From the NCBI RefSeq assembly GCF_002160065.1, contig NZ_NFJW01000014.1:1-51492 (forward strand): 51,492 bases of DNA. Reading direction: 5' to 3'. Made by a program: the position numbers and the translations under genes. The notes under the pieces are model-generated. The model was given only the letters and a program-made list of their open reading frames with translations, ran no database searches and was not told the origin of the DNA. This stretch comes from Collinsella sp. An2 (GTDB taxonomy: Bacteria; Actinomycetota; Coriobacteriia; Coriobacteriales; Coriobacteriaceae). This document shows, one piece after another, positions 5,344-25,985 of this stretch; the stretch's first letter is position 1, and each line of letters begins with the position of its first letter.

Positions 5344-6455
5344 CAGACGGCAGCGCGCGCGACGAGCACCGCATCGACTTCGAGGCCTTCCGCGACCCCG
5401 ACCTTGCCCGCAGCCTCATTGAGCGCATCGACGAGCTGGCTGGGGACCGCGAGCTCAACTTCATGGAAGTCTGCGGCACACATACCATGAGCATCGGCCG
5501 CTACGGTTTTCGCTCCGTCATGCCCCTGGGCATCCACCTGCTTTCGGGTCCTGGATGCCCGGTCTGCGTGACCGCAAACCAGGATATCGACCGCATCATC
5601 GCGCTTGCAAAACTCGACGGCCTCACCATCGCCACCTTCGGCGACATGATGCGTGTTCCAGGGTCGACGAGTTCACTCGCCGCACAGAAAGCCGCTGGGC
5701 ACGACGTGCGCATCGTGTACTCGCCGCTCGATGCCGTCCAGCTTGCTCAACAGCATCCCGAGCTCAACGTGGTGTTCGTCGGCGTGGGATTTGAGACCAC
5801 CACACCCACCATCGCCGCAAGCATCCTTGACGCCGAGGCGCGCGGGCTCACCAACTTCTCAGTCATGAGCGCTCATAAGATGACGCCGCCCGCGCTGCGC
5901 GCCATCGCCGACGACCCGGAGACGCGCATCGACGGCTTCATCCTTCCGGGGCACGTGTCCACCATCACCGGACTTGCTCCCTACCGCTTCCTTGTCGACG
6001 AGTTTGGCATCCCTGGTGTGGTAACTGGATTCGAGCCTGTCGATATTCTGGAAAGCATCCTACTGCTAACCGAGATGGCGATTTCGGGCAGGCCGGCCAT
6101 AGAAAACGCCTATCGCCGCGGTGTGAGCAGCGAAGGGAACGCCGTGGCGCGGGGCGTGGTCGACAAGGTGTTCGAGACCTGTGACGCCACCTGGCGCGGC
6201 CTGGGCAAGCTGCCTGCATCGGGCCTCGCTATTCGACCCGAGTACGCCCGCTTTGACGCCCGTCGTCGCCTTGACGTCGATGTCGAGCCGACTCGTGAGC
6301 CGCGCGGATGCCGCTGCGGAGACGTCCTGCGCGGAGCAATCGCGCCCACGTCGTGCCCGCTCTTTGGACGCGCATGCACGCCCGAGCATCCCGTTGGCCC
6401 ATGCATGGTATCGAGCGAGGGCAGCTGCGCCGCCTATTTTCGCTACCACGAATAG
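5340..6455 (+). CDS. hypD: hydrogenase maturation protein HypD
   Basis: A 371-residue [4Fe-4S] scaffold on which the Fe(CN)2CO moiety is assembled with HypC. The diagnostic motifs are present: FMEVCGTHTMSIGRYG with the catalytic Cys, GPGCPVCVT, FVGVGFETTTPTIA, and PGHVSTITG. The C-terminal cluster-binding region has Cys residues in CRCGDVLRG, SCPLFGRAC and GPCMVSSEGSCAAY. Length and motif order are those of the normal family. It overlaps hypC by 4 bases and is followed by hypE after 108 bases. Confidence 0.97.
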   Translation: MTDGSARDEHRIDFEAFRDPDLARSLIERIDELAGDRELNFMEVCGTHTMSIGRYGFRSVMPLGIHLLSGPGCPVCVTANQDIDRIIALAKLDGLTIATFGDMMRVPGSTSSLAAQKAAGHDVRIVYSPLDAVQLAQQHPELNVVFVGVGFETTTPTIAASILDAEARGLTNFSVMSAHKMTPPALRAIADDPETRIDGFILPGHVSTITGLAPYRFLVDEFGIPGVVTGFEPVDILESILLLTEMAISGRPAIENAYRRGVSSEGNAVARGVVDKVFETCDATWRGLGKLPASGLAIRPEYARFDARRRLDVDVEPTREPRGCRCGDVLRGAIAPTSCPLFGRACTPEHPVGPCMVSSEGSCAAYFRYHE

Positions 6456-22080: not shown

Positions 22081-22764
22081 TTACTGCTTCACGCCATACT
22101 GCTCGTAGTAGGCATCGAGCGCCGCCTTCACCGCGTCGTCGATCACCACGCGGCCGTCGACCTCGCGCCCATACAGGTGCTCGACGACCTCGGCCATGCT
22201 CACGATGGACGCGACCGGGAACCCGTAGCGCTCGGTGATCTCCTGCTGGGCGGTCACGACGCCGCCCTTGCCGACCTCCATGCGGTTAAGCGACACGATA
22301 AGACCCTTGACCTCGACGTTTGCCGCACCGGTCACGATGGGATAGGTCTCGTCGATGGACTTGCCCGAGGTGGTTACGTCCTCGACCATGACCACGCGGT
22401 CGCCGTCCTGAAGCTCGTAGCCCAAAAGGTTGCCCGCATCGGCGCCGTGGTCCTTGACCTCCTTGCGGTTGGAGCAGTAGCGAACCTCCTTGCCGTACAG
22501 GTCATGCATGGCAATGGCCGTGACCACCGACAGCGGGATGCCCTTATACGCCGGGCCAAACAGCACGTCGAAGTCCAGCCCGAAGTTATCGTGAATGGCG
22601 CGGGCATAGTATTCGCCAAGCTTCTTGAGCTGATAGCCCGTCACATACGCGCCGGCGTTCATGAAAAACGGCGACTTGCGCCCGCTTTTGAGCGTGAACT
22701 CACCAAACTTGAGCACGTCGCTTTGGACCATGAACTCGATGAACTCCTGCTTGTAAGCCTCCAT
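22081..22764 (-). CDS. pyrE: orotate phosphoribosyltransferase
   Basis: A 227-residue enzyme joining orotate and PRPP to give OMP in pyrimidine synthesis. The type-I PRPP loop is VVMVEDVTTSGKSIDE. The orotate-binding region LKSGRKSPFFMNAGAY and the flexible loop NRKEVKDHGADAGN are intact. The ATG at 22764 follows GATAGGAG; an upstream in-frame extension is unlike the family. It is isolated from other pyr genes in this window. No PyrR-type attenuator is obvious in the 100-base leader. Confidence 0.95.
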   Translation of the reverse strand: MEAYKQEFIEFMVQSDVLKFGEFTLKSGRKSPFFMNAGAYVTGYQLKKLGEYYARAIHDNFGLDFDVLFGPAYKGIPLSVVTAIAMHDLYGKEVRYCSNRKEVKDHGADAGNLLGYELQDGDRVVMVEDVTTSGKSIDETYPIVTGAANVEVKGLIVSLNRMEVGKGGVVTAQQEITERYGFPVASIVSMAEVVEHLYGREVDGRVVIDDAVKAALDAYYEQYGVKQ

Positions 22765-22872
22765 GAGAACTCCTATCTCGGCTTGACGATGCATATCCTG
22801 TCGACAAGCATAGCAGAGCACCCCCGGGGGCGACGCGCACGCATCGGTAGCCGCCGGCACGCGACGGCGCCA

Positions 22873-24114
22873 CTAGAATCCCAAGAACTGAAGCACGAAC
22901 ATGCACACAGTGAGCACCGTGATGAGCACCACGGTCACCCAGGTAAGCAGGTTCCACACGCGCCCGTTGCGGTACTCCCCCATGATGCGTCGGTCGCTTG
23001 CGATGAGCACCAAAAACACCAGAAGCGCTGGCAGCAGCACGCCGTTGATGACCTGCGAGACCATCATGATGCCAAACAGGTCGACCCCGGGCAGGATGAC
23101 GAGCAGCGCAGAGACCACGATCACCGCCGTGATGATGCCGCGATAGGCCGGCGCCTCCTCCCAGGTGCGGTCGGCGCCGCGCTCCCAGCCGAAGGCCTCG
23201 CAGATGGCCGAAGACGTCACGCCCGGAAGCACGCACGCGGCCAAAAAGCTCGCCGCCACCAGTCCGGCCGCGAAGAGCACCGTCGACCACTCGCCCACGA
23301 TGGGTTCGAGCGCGCGGGCCGCATCCGCCGCGTCCGAGATCTGGATGCCTGCGGGAAAGAGCACGGCCCCGGTGGTGACGATAATGAACCACGCCACGAT
23401 GCACGAGATCACCGAGCCCGAGATGGCATCCACGCGCTGCAGCGGCAGATCGTCGGCGTCGGCGTTCTTGTCCACCACGTTGTTCTGCGCGAGAAAGATC
23501 ATCCACGGCGCAATGGTGGTGCCGATGGTCGCCACCAGCAGCGAAATATAGCTGGGATCGCTCTCAACCTGGGGGGTCACGGTGGCGCGTAGCACCTGGC
23601 CCCAATCGGGCCCCACCATGAAGGCGGCGACCACGTAGGTCAAAAACACGCAGCTCACCAGCAGCAGAATCTTCTCGATACGCTGGAAGCTGCCCGACAT
23701 GGTGAGCAGCCACACCACAAGCGCCATGAGCGGAACCGAAATCGCAGGCGACACGCCAAAGAGCGACAGGCCGCTCGCGATGCCCGCGAACTCCGAGATG
23801 GTGACCGCGGTGTTGGCGATCAGCAGCGCCGCCATGGCGAGCGCACTCCGGCGCACGCCGAAGCGCTCGCGGATGAGCGATGCGAAGCCCTTGCCCGTCA
23901 CGCAGCCGCAGCGCGTGGCCGTCTCCTGCACCACGATGAGCAGCAGCGCCATCACGGGCAGAATCCACAGCATGCCGAAGCCGTATTTCGCGCCGTCACT
24001 CGAGTAGGTCGCGATGCCGCCGGCGTCGTTGCCGGCAAGCGCGGCCAGAAGACCGGGGCCCATCGCCCCTAGGATCGCGGCAAGCGTCAGCTTATCTCTG
24101 GTTCCCCGTACCAC
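22873..24114 (-). CDS. NRAMP-related magnesium transporter (NRMT type)
   Basis: A 413-residue, about 11-helix SLC11/NRAMP-family protein. The classical transition-metal motifs are replaced: DPGN of helix 1 reads DAGG (AALAGNDAGGIATYSS) and MPH of helix 6 reads APW (GTTIAPWMIFLAQNN). Loss of the metal-binding Asn and Met is the mark of the NRMT clade, for which Mg2+ transport has been shown for an Eggerthella lenta protein, also from Coriobacteriia. Uptake of Mg2+ or Mn2+ at the cell membrane is therefore inferred. The start is GTG at 24114 with GGGAGGA upstream. It follows the MgtE-like gene by 26 bases, so both are one operon. Confidence 0.87.
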   Translation of the reverse strand: MVRGTRDKLTLAAILGAMGPGLLAALAGNDAGGIATYSSDGAKYGFGMLWILPVMALLLIVVQETATRCGCVTGKGFASLIRERFGVRRSALAMAALLIANTAVTISEFAGIASGLSLFGVSPAISVPLMALVVWLLTMSGSFQRIEKILLLVSCVFLTYVVAAFMVGPDWGQVLRATVTPQVESDPSYISLLVATIGTTIAPWMIFLAQNNVVDKNADADDLPLQRVDAISGSVISCIVAWFIIVTTGAVLFPAGIQISDAADAARALEPIVGEWSTVLFAAGLVAASFLAACVLPGVTSSAICEAFGWERGADRTWEEAPAYRGIITAVIVVSALLVILPGVDLFGIMMVSQVINGVLLPALLVFLVLIASDRRIMGEYRNGRVWNLLTWVTVVLITVLTVCMFVLQFLGF

Positions 24115-24140
24115 GAGACCGTCCTCCCTACGATGCCGGG

Positions 24141-25985
24141 CTATCCCGCGATAAGCGAGACGACGGCGACGGAGGCGGCCGAGTACAGCGCGGCGGCTAT
24201 GAACACGGCGAGAACGCTCAGCGCGGTGCCCGAGGTGTTGAGGTCGTGGTCATCGCGCCAGAACAGCACCTTGAGATAGCCCACCGAGCTGAAGCAGCTC
24301 AGCAGCGAGACGAGCGCCGCGACGCCAAAGCTCCAGGTGAGAAGCTGTGCCGGTACCGACGATGCGTCCGAGAAGGCTGCACCCACCACGAGCTGGCCGC
24401 ACAGGTACACCACCAGCGCAAGCGCCACGCCCACGCCGGTGGTCTGCAGCCAGAACGCCAGGTACGGACGACCCTCGTCGTCGCGGTCGTTCTCCAGATA
24501 CCAGTTGCGCACAAACGCGGTGGAGCGGCTCGCTGCAAGCAGCGCCACGGGCATGGCGCACATGGGATAGATGAACGCGTTCTCGAAGCTTGTAAGCCCG
24601 GCGGTCACAGAAGCGAGAATGCCCGAGGCGATCGCCCATACCAAAATCCAGTAATGGCGCTTGGAGAACCAGGTGAGCGCATGCAGCGACTCGCCACCGA
24701 CGCTTCCCTCGCCCGAGCCCATGCCGGCGATCTGCAGGTCTTCCTGATGCTCCTCCGACATGACCTCCATGGCGTCGTCCACCGTGACGATGCCCAGAAT
24801 GTGGCGGTTCTCGTCGCAGACCGGGATGGCGGCCAGGTTGTACTTGGACATCTCCTCGGCCACGTCCTCCTGGTCCACATCGGGCGCCACCCAAACGACG
24901 TCGCGATAGGCAAGGCTGTCCAGGCGCGCATCGTGGTCGGCCACGATGAGCGCGCGCAGCGAGAGCACGCCGGTGAGCGCACCGGCCGGGTCGGTGGTAT
25001 AGACGTAGTAGACGCTCTCGAAGTCCTCGTCCAGCTTGCGCAGGCCCTCGATGGCGTCGTCCACCGTCGAGGTCGCCGGCAGCGCGACGAACTCCGAGGT
25101 CATGATGCGGCCTGCGGTGTCCTCTTCGTAGCCGAGCAGGTTACGAATCGCGCGCTCCTCCTTGACGCCCATGAGGCGCAGAAGCTTCTCGGCCTTCTCG
25201 TAATCGAGCTCCTCGATGAGGGCCGCAGCGTCGTCGGGGTCCATGAGGGCGAGCATGGACGAGGCGTCGCGGTCGCTCATGCCCTCGAGCATCTCGGCGA
25301 CAAGCTCCTCGTCGTCGAACTCGCTGATGGCCTCGGCGGCCTGCGCCGTGTCAAGCTGGGCAAAGACCTCGCCGCGCAGCCGCGGGTCCAGCTGCTCGAT
25401 GATGTCGGCGATATCCGCAGGGTGCAGCTCGTCGAGCGTCTTGTGCGAGACGGAGAGCTTGATCTGCTGGGTGCTGCGCTCAAGCAGGTCCATGTACGAC
25501 CAGGCGATGATGTGCTCGGGAAGCGGCTTGCCCATAAGCTTGGCCGCCCGCTCTACGAAGCGTTCCAAGGCCGGATGCAGTGCGCGCAGCAGGCCGCGAA
25601 TGCCCACCTCGGCGCCGAGCAGGCGAAGCTGGTTTTCGCCCGAGGCCGACAGCTTGAGGTCGTTGACGCGCACGACCTTGAGCCCCTGCGTGTCGACGAT
25701 CTGCTTGTTCAGGATATCGCGTGCCAACAGCACCTCATCGGGCTGCAGATAGGAAAAGCGCACGTCGGCCTGGGAGGCCTTGAGATAGACGCCCGTGTTG
25801 TCGAAATGGTCGACATACTTGCGCCACGAGATCATAAAGGGTGTCTTCGCAGGGCCCTGGAAGGCAAGCGACGTCACATGGGGAAAGACCTCGCCGGTGG
25901 CGATGCCCAGGTCGTTCACGACGCCGAGCTCTTCCCCGTCCACATCGATGACGGGCAGCTTGAGCATCTCGGATAGGTAGTTCAT
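24141..25985 (-). CDS. MgtE-like protein with PRC-barrel, MgtE_N and CBS domains and degenerate membrane domain
   Basis: A 614-residue protein. Residues 1 to about 130 hold two PRC-barrel-like units (IDVDGEELGVVNDL, IVDTQGLKVVRVNDL). About 180-300 is the MgtE_N superhelix (LDELHPADIADIIEQLDP, then repeats such as MLALMDPDDAAALIEELD). About 305-430 is a CBS pair (GRIMTSEFVALP; YNLAAIPVCDENRHILGIV). The rest is a five-helix membrane domain distantly like the MgtE pore. In true MgtE the pore has a GGNxGxQ-type signature and a Mg-selecting Asp in the last helix; here the corresponding stretches read ALLAASRSTAFV and VLAVFIAAALYS, without that Asp. I infer a magnesium sensor or partner of the co-transcribed NRMT rather than a channel. 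AAGGAG precedes the ATG. Confidence 0.85.
   Translation of the reverse strand: MNYLSEMLKLPVIDVDGEELGVVNDLGIATGEVFPHVTSLAFQGPAKTPFMISWRKYVDHFDNTGVYLKASQADVRFSYLQPDEVLLARDILNKQIVDTQGLKVVRVNDLKLSASGENQLRLLGAEVGIRGLLRALHPALERFVERAAKLMGKPLPEHIIAWSYMDLLERSTQQIKLSVSHKTLDELHPADIADIIEQLDPRLRGEVFAQLDTAQAAEAISEFDDEELVAEMLEGMSDRDASSMLALMDPDDAAALIEELDYEKAEKLLRLMGVKEERAIRNLLGYEEDTAGRIMTSEFVALPATSTVDDAIEGLRKLDEDFESVYYVYTTDPAGALTGVLSLRALIVADHDARLDSLAYRDVVWVAPDVDQEDVAEEMSKYNLAAIPVCDENRHILGIVTVDDAMEVMSEEHQEDLQIAGMGSGEGSVGGESLHALTWFSKRHYWILVWAIASGILASVTAGLTSFENAFIYPMCAMPVALLAASRSTAFVRNWYLENDRDDEGRPYLAFWLQTTGVGVALALVVYLCGQLVVGAAFSDASSVPAQLLTWSFGVAALVSLLSCFSSVGYLKVLFWRDDHDLNTSGTALSVLAVFIAAALYSAASVAVVSLIAG

Follow-up and report, generated by a model that had tools for sequence, protein, structure and literature searches.

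Shin et al. 2014 (PMC4072509) reported that a gene for the cytoplasmic domain of the magnesium channel MgtE stands beside most nrmT genes, often behind an M-box riboswitch, and that a role as feedback regulator was proposed for this neighbour. NRMT proteins themselves carry the signature DxxG in helix 1 and TxxA/T in helix 6, and the one from Eggerthella lenta (EleNRMT) is an uncoupled Mg2+ transporter (PMC8806188). Here we describe such a pair in Collinsella sp. An2, a member of the Coriobacteriaceae (assembly GCF_002160065.1, 2.5 Mb in 46 contigs), on contig NZ_NFJW01000014.1, whose 51,492 nucleotides were analysed as one stretch, called the window below. The partner gene lies 26 bases upstream of the NRMT gene, in the same orientation; the spacing, the coordinates and the domain reading of the initial annotation stood uncorrected. 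Like the partner of Shin et al. 2014 (PMC4072509), the window partner adjoins nrmT and is homologous to the MgtE cytoplasmic domain; whereas that partner is small and consists of the cytoplasmic domain only, ours has 614 amino acids (aa), begins with a PRC barrel and includes a pore-less membrane part of five helices, and its module is also found with the Mg2+ ATPase MgtA. With moderate confidence, we propose that the 614-aa protein descends from an MgtE-type channel with a dead pore and serves the adjacent NRMT as its cytoplasmic Mg2+ sensor subunit. The pairing with nrmT and the feedback idea have been known since 2014; what appears to be new is that a membrane-bearing form with a dead pore runs through a class, and that the module is coupled to MgtA. 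The features of the locus are as follows (TtMgtE, Thermus MgtE; TM, transmembrane helix; pLDDT, predicted local distance difference test).

24141-25985, minus strand: pore-dead MgtE-like partner, 614 aa, with PRC barrel, MgtE_N, CBS pair, plug helix and five membrane helices
25761-25985, minus strand: PRC-barrel domain, about residues 1-75 (Pfam PF05239 match to residues 2-32, 28.4 bits against a cut-off of 21.2; strands in the model)
25119-25427, minus strand: MgtE_N domain, residues 187-289 (PF03448, 86 bits); the D91 equivalent is invariant in the module set except in one member
24759-25118, minus strand: CBS pair, residues 290-409 (PF00571, two stretches, 64 bits); D404, the equivalent of D247, is retained
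24729-24782, minus strand: plug helix, residues 402-419, helical in the model; E412, E415 and D416 correspond to TtMgtE E255, E258 and D259
24144-24692, minus strand: five-helix membrane part, residues 432-614, predicted MgtE fold minus the pore residues (AlphaFold2, pLDDT 93)
24525-24551, minus strand: P479-X6-S486-R487, in place of the PX6GN pore motif of MgtE TM2 (alignment)
22873-24114, minus strand: predicted NRMT-type NRAMP Mg2+ transporter, 413 aa (Pfam, solved relatives)
24016-24027, minus strand: DAGG, residues 30-33, DxxG half of the NRMT metal site (signature in PMC8806188)
23509-23520, minus strand: TTIA, residues 199-202, TxxA half of the NRMT metal site (signature in PMC8806188)
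26187-26212, minus strand: terminator-like hairpin between the pair and the upstream same-strand gene (consensus match only)

The transporter belongs to the NRAMP family by Pfam (PF01566, 301 bits). Its best solved relative is EleNRMT (7qia; 512 bits, E 1e-152), the next solved NRAMP reaching 112 bits, and its grouping with EleNRMT rather than with the Mn/Fe NRAMPs is by score, without an NRAMP tree. It carries D30-A-G-G33 and T199-T-I-A202, the latter within a TTIA-PW stretch spanning 199-204, and so has the same DxxG/TxxA site as its close homologue EleNRMT; the initial annotation, which had read DAGG and APW as the NRMT pattern, was right in this. We infer from sequence that this copy carries Mg2+. 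EleNRMT was studied alone, and the Eggerthellaceae-type partners keep only one membrane helix.

Pfam assigns a PRC, an MgtE_N and two CBS domains to the partner, as had been noted from the letters alone, and thus the MgtE_N and CBS pair by which the MgtE family is recognised. PF01769, the MgtE membrane domain, gives no match on the window partner and none in the whole genome, which has two CorA matches; relatives of the partner in other families of the class Coriobacteriia score 20-33 bits. The ancestry of the membrane part is argued from fold and from intermediate sequences. In a full-length model, MgtE structures lead the matches over residues 182-614. Folded alone, the membrane part is predicted with its five helices in MgtE order, and the top five Foldseek matches to this model are all MgtE (probability 0.97-1.00, best E 0.01); in the comparison labelled VIA, the membrane-only model and residues 271-448 of 2yvx give Z 12.6 over 173 residues at a root-mean-square deviation of 4.5, a Z that on its own is borderline for a helical bundle. 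Membrane-part-only profiles that exclude the plug helix link the window clade with other families of the class at 1.5e-15, those families with MgtE at 6.7e-12, and partners from outside the class with MgtE at 1.5e-23. This chain of profiles and the predicted fold led us to reject the possibility that the membrane part is unrelated to MgtE. Among named records, the closest partner sequences come from Enorma and Candidatus Limicola (81-83%), then from Collinsella. Set against the Thermus channel (2zy9, 5x9h, 4u9l), the partner shares MgtE_N, the CBS pair, the equivalents of plug-helix E255, E258 and D259 and, as modelled, the five-helix fold, but it has neither PX6GN, P(D/A)X4PX6D nor D432, has lost several ATP contacts, and bears an extra PRC-barrel region of about 170 residues.

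The pore of MgtE is marked by the motifs PX6GN and P(D/A)X4PX6D (PMC9276622); Gly325 and Gly328 are required for activity, and TtMgtE D418 is a Mg2+-binding acid (PMC8104411). By alignment, the GN of PX6GN occurs in 0/112 partner membrane parts and in 15/16 true MgtE proteins. No partner (0/112) has an aspartate at the position of TtMgtE D432, which we take to be the Mg-selecting aspartate of TM5, while all 16 true MgtE proteins do. The window partner reads PX6SR (P479, S486, R487) where MgtE has PX6GN and has a hydrophobic residue in the D432 column; the Gly325 and Gly328 positions are largely or wholly substituted among partners. An intact pore in the window protein is thus rejected, and the lack of the pore signature and the selecting aspartate, first noted for this one protein, extends to the whole family. 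The structural alignment with MgtE suggested alongside that claim gives a retained MgtE fold, as far as the models go, and no intact pore.

The sensing residues have fared differently from the pore. Presumably D91, D226, D247, E255, E258 and D259 of TtMgtE all bind Mg2+. The D91 and D247 equivalents are retained almost everywhere in the module set, and those of plug-helix E255/E258/D259 in 20/20 NRMT-linked membrane-bearing modules, in 8/9 of the remaining membrane-bearing modules and in almost every MgtE; they are gone from most soluble modules and from all MgtA-linked ones. Among 16 Collinsella sequences, the ratio of nonsynonymous to synonymous substitution rates (dN/dS) is 0.013 for MgtE_N and CBS, 0.022 for NRMT and 0.04 for the membrane part; because of this last value, the membrane part is under purifying selection, and we rejected the reading of it as a decaying pseudo-domain. 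In alignment A1, it is the least conserved part, at 47% mean identity versus 72-83% for the cytoplasmic parts, and W446, W450, P479, E498, D500, D578, S585 and G586 are fixed or nearly so.

The pairing itself is widespread. We scanned 149 genomes of Coriobacteriia, 114 of which have a strong NRMT match, and the partner adjoins NRMT in all 114, which argues against chance. By script, it lies just upstream on the same strand in 111; in the remaining three it is split in two frames, present as a piece at a contig end, or in reversed order. Named records show the pair at 78 of 80 loci, the two others being a stretch that stops at a contig edge and one without a partner in the stretch. In the rest of the phylum, the genes are paired in 30 of 51 cases, in 14 the module is at another place in the genome, and seven have no module match at the threshold used, although one of the seven (G234) does have the module beside NRMT. 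Phyla outside Actinomycetota were represented by one Alicyclobacillus plasmid. The neighbourhood survey thus finds the pairing conserved across the class and into the rest of the phylum, and its confinement to the genus is rejected.

Three forms of the module occur: a membrane-bearing one of about 600-700 aa, a soluble one of about 410-450 aa, and an Eggerthellaceae type with one C-terminal helix, family names of this kind being assigned to class genomes by similarity. In the module tree, which has long branches and a root for drawing only, the Eggerthellaceae-type and MgtA-linked forms nest inside the membrane-bearing Coriobacteriia, and because of this nesting at least two losses of the membrane part within the class are probable. 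The single hydrophobic C-terminal helix of the Eggerthellaceae-type partners (L143-L147) is possibly a tail anchor. At three other loci, a protein of 190-245 aa with weak similarity to the module lies just downstream of NRMT (L164:2317-3051, PRC-like; L138:2708-3313; L167:6529-7107), and in these genomes the membrane-bearing module is located elsewhere.

The module is also coupled to MgtA, a P-type Mg2+ ATPase. In two genomes of class family f7, which have no NRMT match, a 412-aa module that retains no membrane helix follows 24 bases after the MgtA gene (TIGR01524, 1151 bits, cut-off 611). In sister-class families f36 and f52, one genome each, module and ATPase form one protein of 1317 aa, with the module at residues 2-410 and MgtA at 433-1314 (PRC-MgtE_N-CBS-MgtA fusions at L226:1778-5731 and L227:1590-5543). 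We found no earlier report of an MgtA-MgtE_N-CBS fusion in the open-access literature, closed journals not being excluded. CorA proteins with an MgtE-like N-terminus are mentioned in a review (PMC9276622), and these MgtE-CorA fusions (Dechloromonas, Magnetospirillum) likewise join the N-terminal part of MgtE to another Mg2+ transporter family; the module described here differs from them in bearing a PRC barrel and in pairing with NRMT as a separate gene and with MgtA both in an operon and as a fusion. Because the same module is also coupled to MgtA in related bacteria, the PRC-MgtE_N-CBS module is probably a portable cytoplasmic Mg2+ sensor and regulator of Mg2+ uptake. DUF1003 and CorA genes stand close to the module in actinobacterial genomes, among them ones of Streptomyces size; at two such loci from large genomes (L232:3015-7799, L234:2-4480) a soluble module is near CorA, and in L232 it also adjoins a DUF1003 protein. 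At the f7 loci (L215:3057-6970, L216:1-2073), where the soluble module comes right after the MgtA gene and NRMT has no match, a second PRC-barrel-like protein is nearby.

M-box riboswitches (RF00380, 113-130 bits) stand before the membrane-bearing pair at 9 of the 10 loci examined in class families beyond the window's order, and before the soluble pair at 7/11 loci, one Alicyclobacillus plasmid included. Most deep-branching families of the class have an M-box ahead of the pair. A little downstream of the NRMT gene, locus L171 has a Cyclic di-GMP-II riboswitch (6109-6174).

How might a dead channel serve a transporter of another fold? NRMT would need a brake, because on the published data it is an uncoupled facilitator. 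By analogy with MgtE, high cytosolic Mg2+ would compact the sensor part, and the compacted sensor would slow NRMT through the plug helix and the membrane part; low Mg2+ would release it again. The membrane part would act as a dimerising docking platform rather than as a conduit. We put forward a bolder form only tentatively, with somewhat more doubt than belief, in which the dead channel is a Mg2+-driven gate of an other-fold transporter, its plug helix and pore-less core relaying the signal, and in which the module can be detached and works as a general regulator, able to act on Mg2+ importers of several classes or to be fused to them. The initial annotation had likewise proposed a former channel turned magnesium sensor or gate for a transporter of another fold; the lost pore, the kept sensor and the wide pairing speak for it, the M-boxes upstream in relatives and the coupling of the module to MgtA strengthen it, and it is the gating and the physical contact with NRMT that we infer.

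Several observations weigh against a sensor subunit for NRMT. When the pair from Acidobacterium capsulatum was co-expressed in B. subtilis, in the only published co-expression test that we found, the MgtE-like protein was reportedly without effect (PMC4072509), and NRMTs transport without a partner in B. subtilis and in proteoliposomes (PMC4072509, PMC8806188). As described, the B. subtilis assays looked at growth rescue or uptake rather than at feedback when internal Mg2+ is high (PMC4072509), and for this reason they leave room for a brake. In the window partner, the D226 equivalent is N383, and Y360 and L384 stand where MgtE has the key ATP contacts N203 and F227. The membrane-part-only profile of the window clade, compared directly with MgtE, gives P 0.16, equal to the negative (NRMT) controls; homology is thus drawn from the intermediate families and the predicted fold. 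No M-box was found at the loci examined in the window's order, the window included. Lastly, in one sister class (f36, f52, f66) the membrane-bearing module does not adjoin NRMT, and in class family f6 it is present in genomes without an NRMT match, so a module without a neighbouring NRMT may have another target. Some of the f6 loci with a pore-less module (L214, L217, L218, L219) have it beside purE or 5-formyltetrahydrofolate cyclo-ligase genes.

Such solitary modules would also suit a partner that is still a channel or carrier in its own right, one whose permeation path has been rebuilt and whose only tie to NRMT is the common operon. The retained five-helix fold, as modelled, and the strong purifying selection on the membrane part agree with this, as do the sister-group modules that have no adjoining transporter. 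We nevertheless think it distinctly unlikely: the motifs that define the MgtE pore are gone in 112/112, the membrane part is the fastest-evolving portion, and it has probably been dropped twice, down to one helix in the Eggerthellaceae type and to none in the MgtA-linked f7 form, with the sensor still coupled to a transporter. We give even less credence to ordinary co-inheritance, in which the genes have independent roles in Mg2+ homeostasis and share only a Mg2+-controlled promoter or riboswitch. M-box control alone could hold two Mg2+ genes together, and the genes are apart in sister-class families, but adjacency lasts in the window's order, where the loci examined gave no M-box, and a transporter swap together with an MgtA fusion is hard to explain unless the proteins are direct partners.

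A third possibility, rather unlikely in our judgement, is that the partner is a Mg2+-dependent chaperone, assembly factor or turnover factor for Mg2+ transporters and not an acute gate. Proteins with a PRC barrel often work in assembly, which lends this some plausibility, and coupling to both NRMT and MgtA does not tell gating from control of stability. Yet the gating parts of MgtE (the plug-helix acids, D91 and D247) are kept specifically in the membrane-bearing forms, and this retention points to a conformational role; a covalent fusion to MgtA is also more what one would expect of a permanent regulatory domain than of a chaperone that binds transiently. As for the surroundings of the pair, the gene that comes next after NRMT, in the same orientation (22081-22860, minus strand), resembles, by eye, an orotate phosphoribosyltransferase, and PADLOC gave no match that would support a defence-system reading of the locus.

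These results bear on the role of the MgtE-like gene beside NrmT, which has been a question since 2014, and they concern a transporter, NRMT, that is an uncoupled Mg2+ facilitator without a known brake. With the exchange of NRMT for MgtA and the naturally occurring MgtA fusion, the sensor hypothesis can be put to a direct test within a single protein. If it is true that a channel core has stayed under selection after the loss of its pore, the partner would be a clear example from bacteria of how a transporter can become a regulator.
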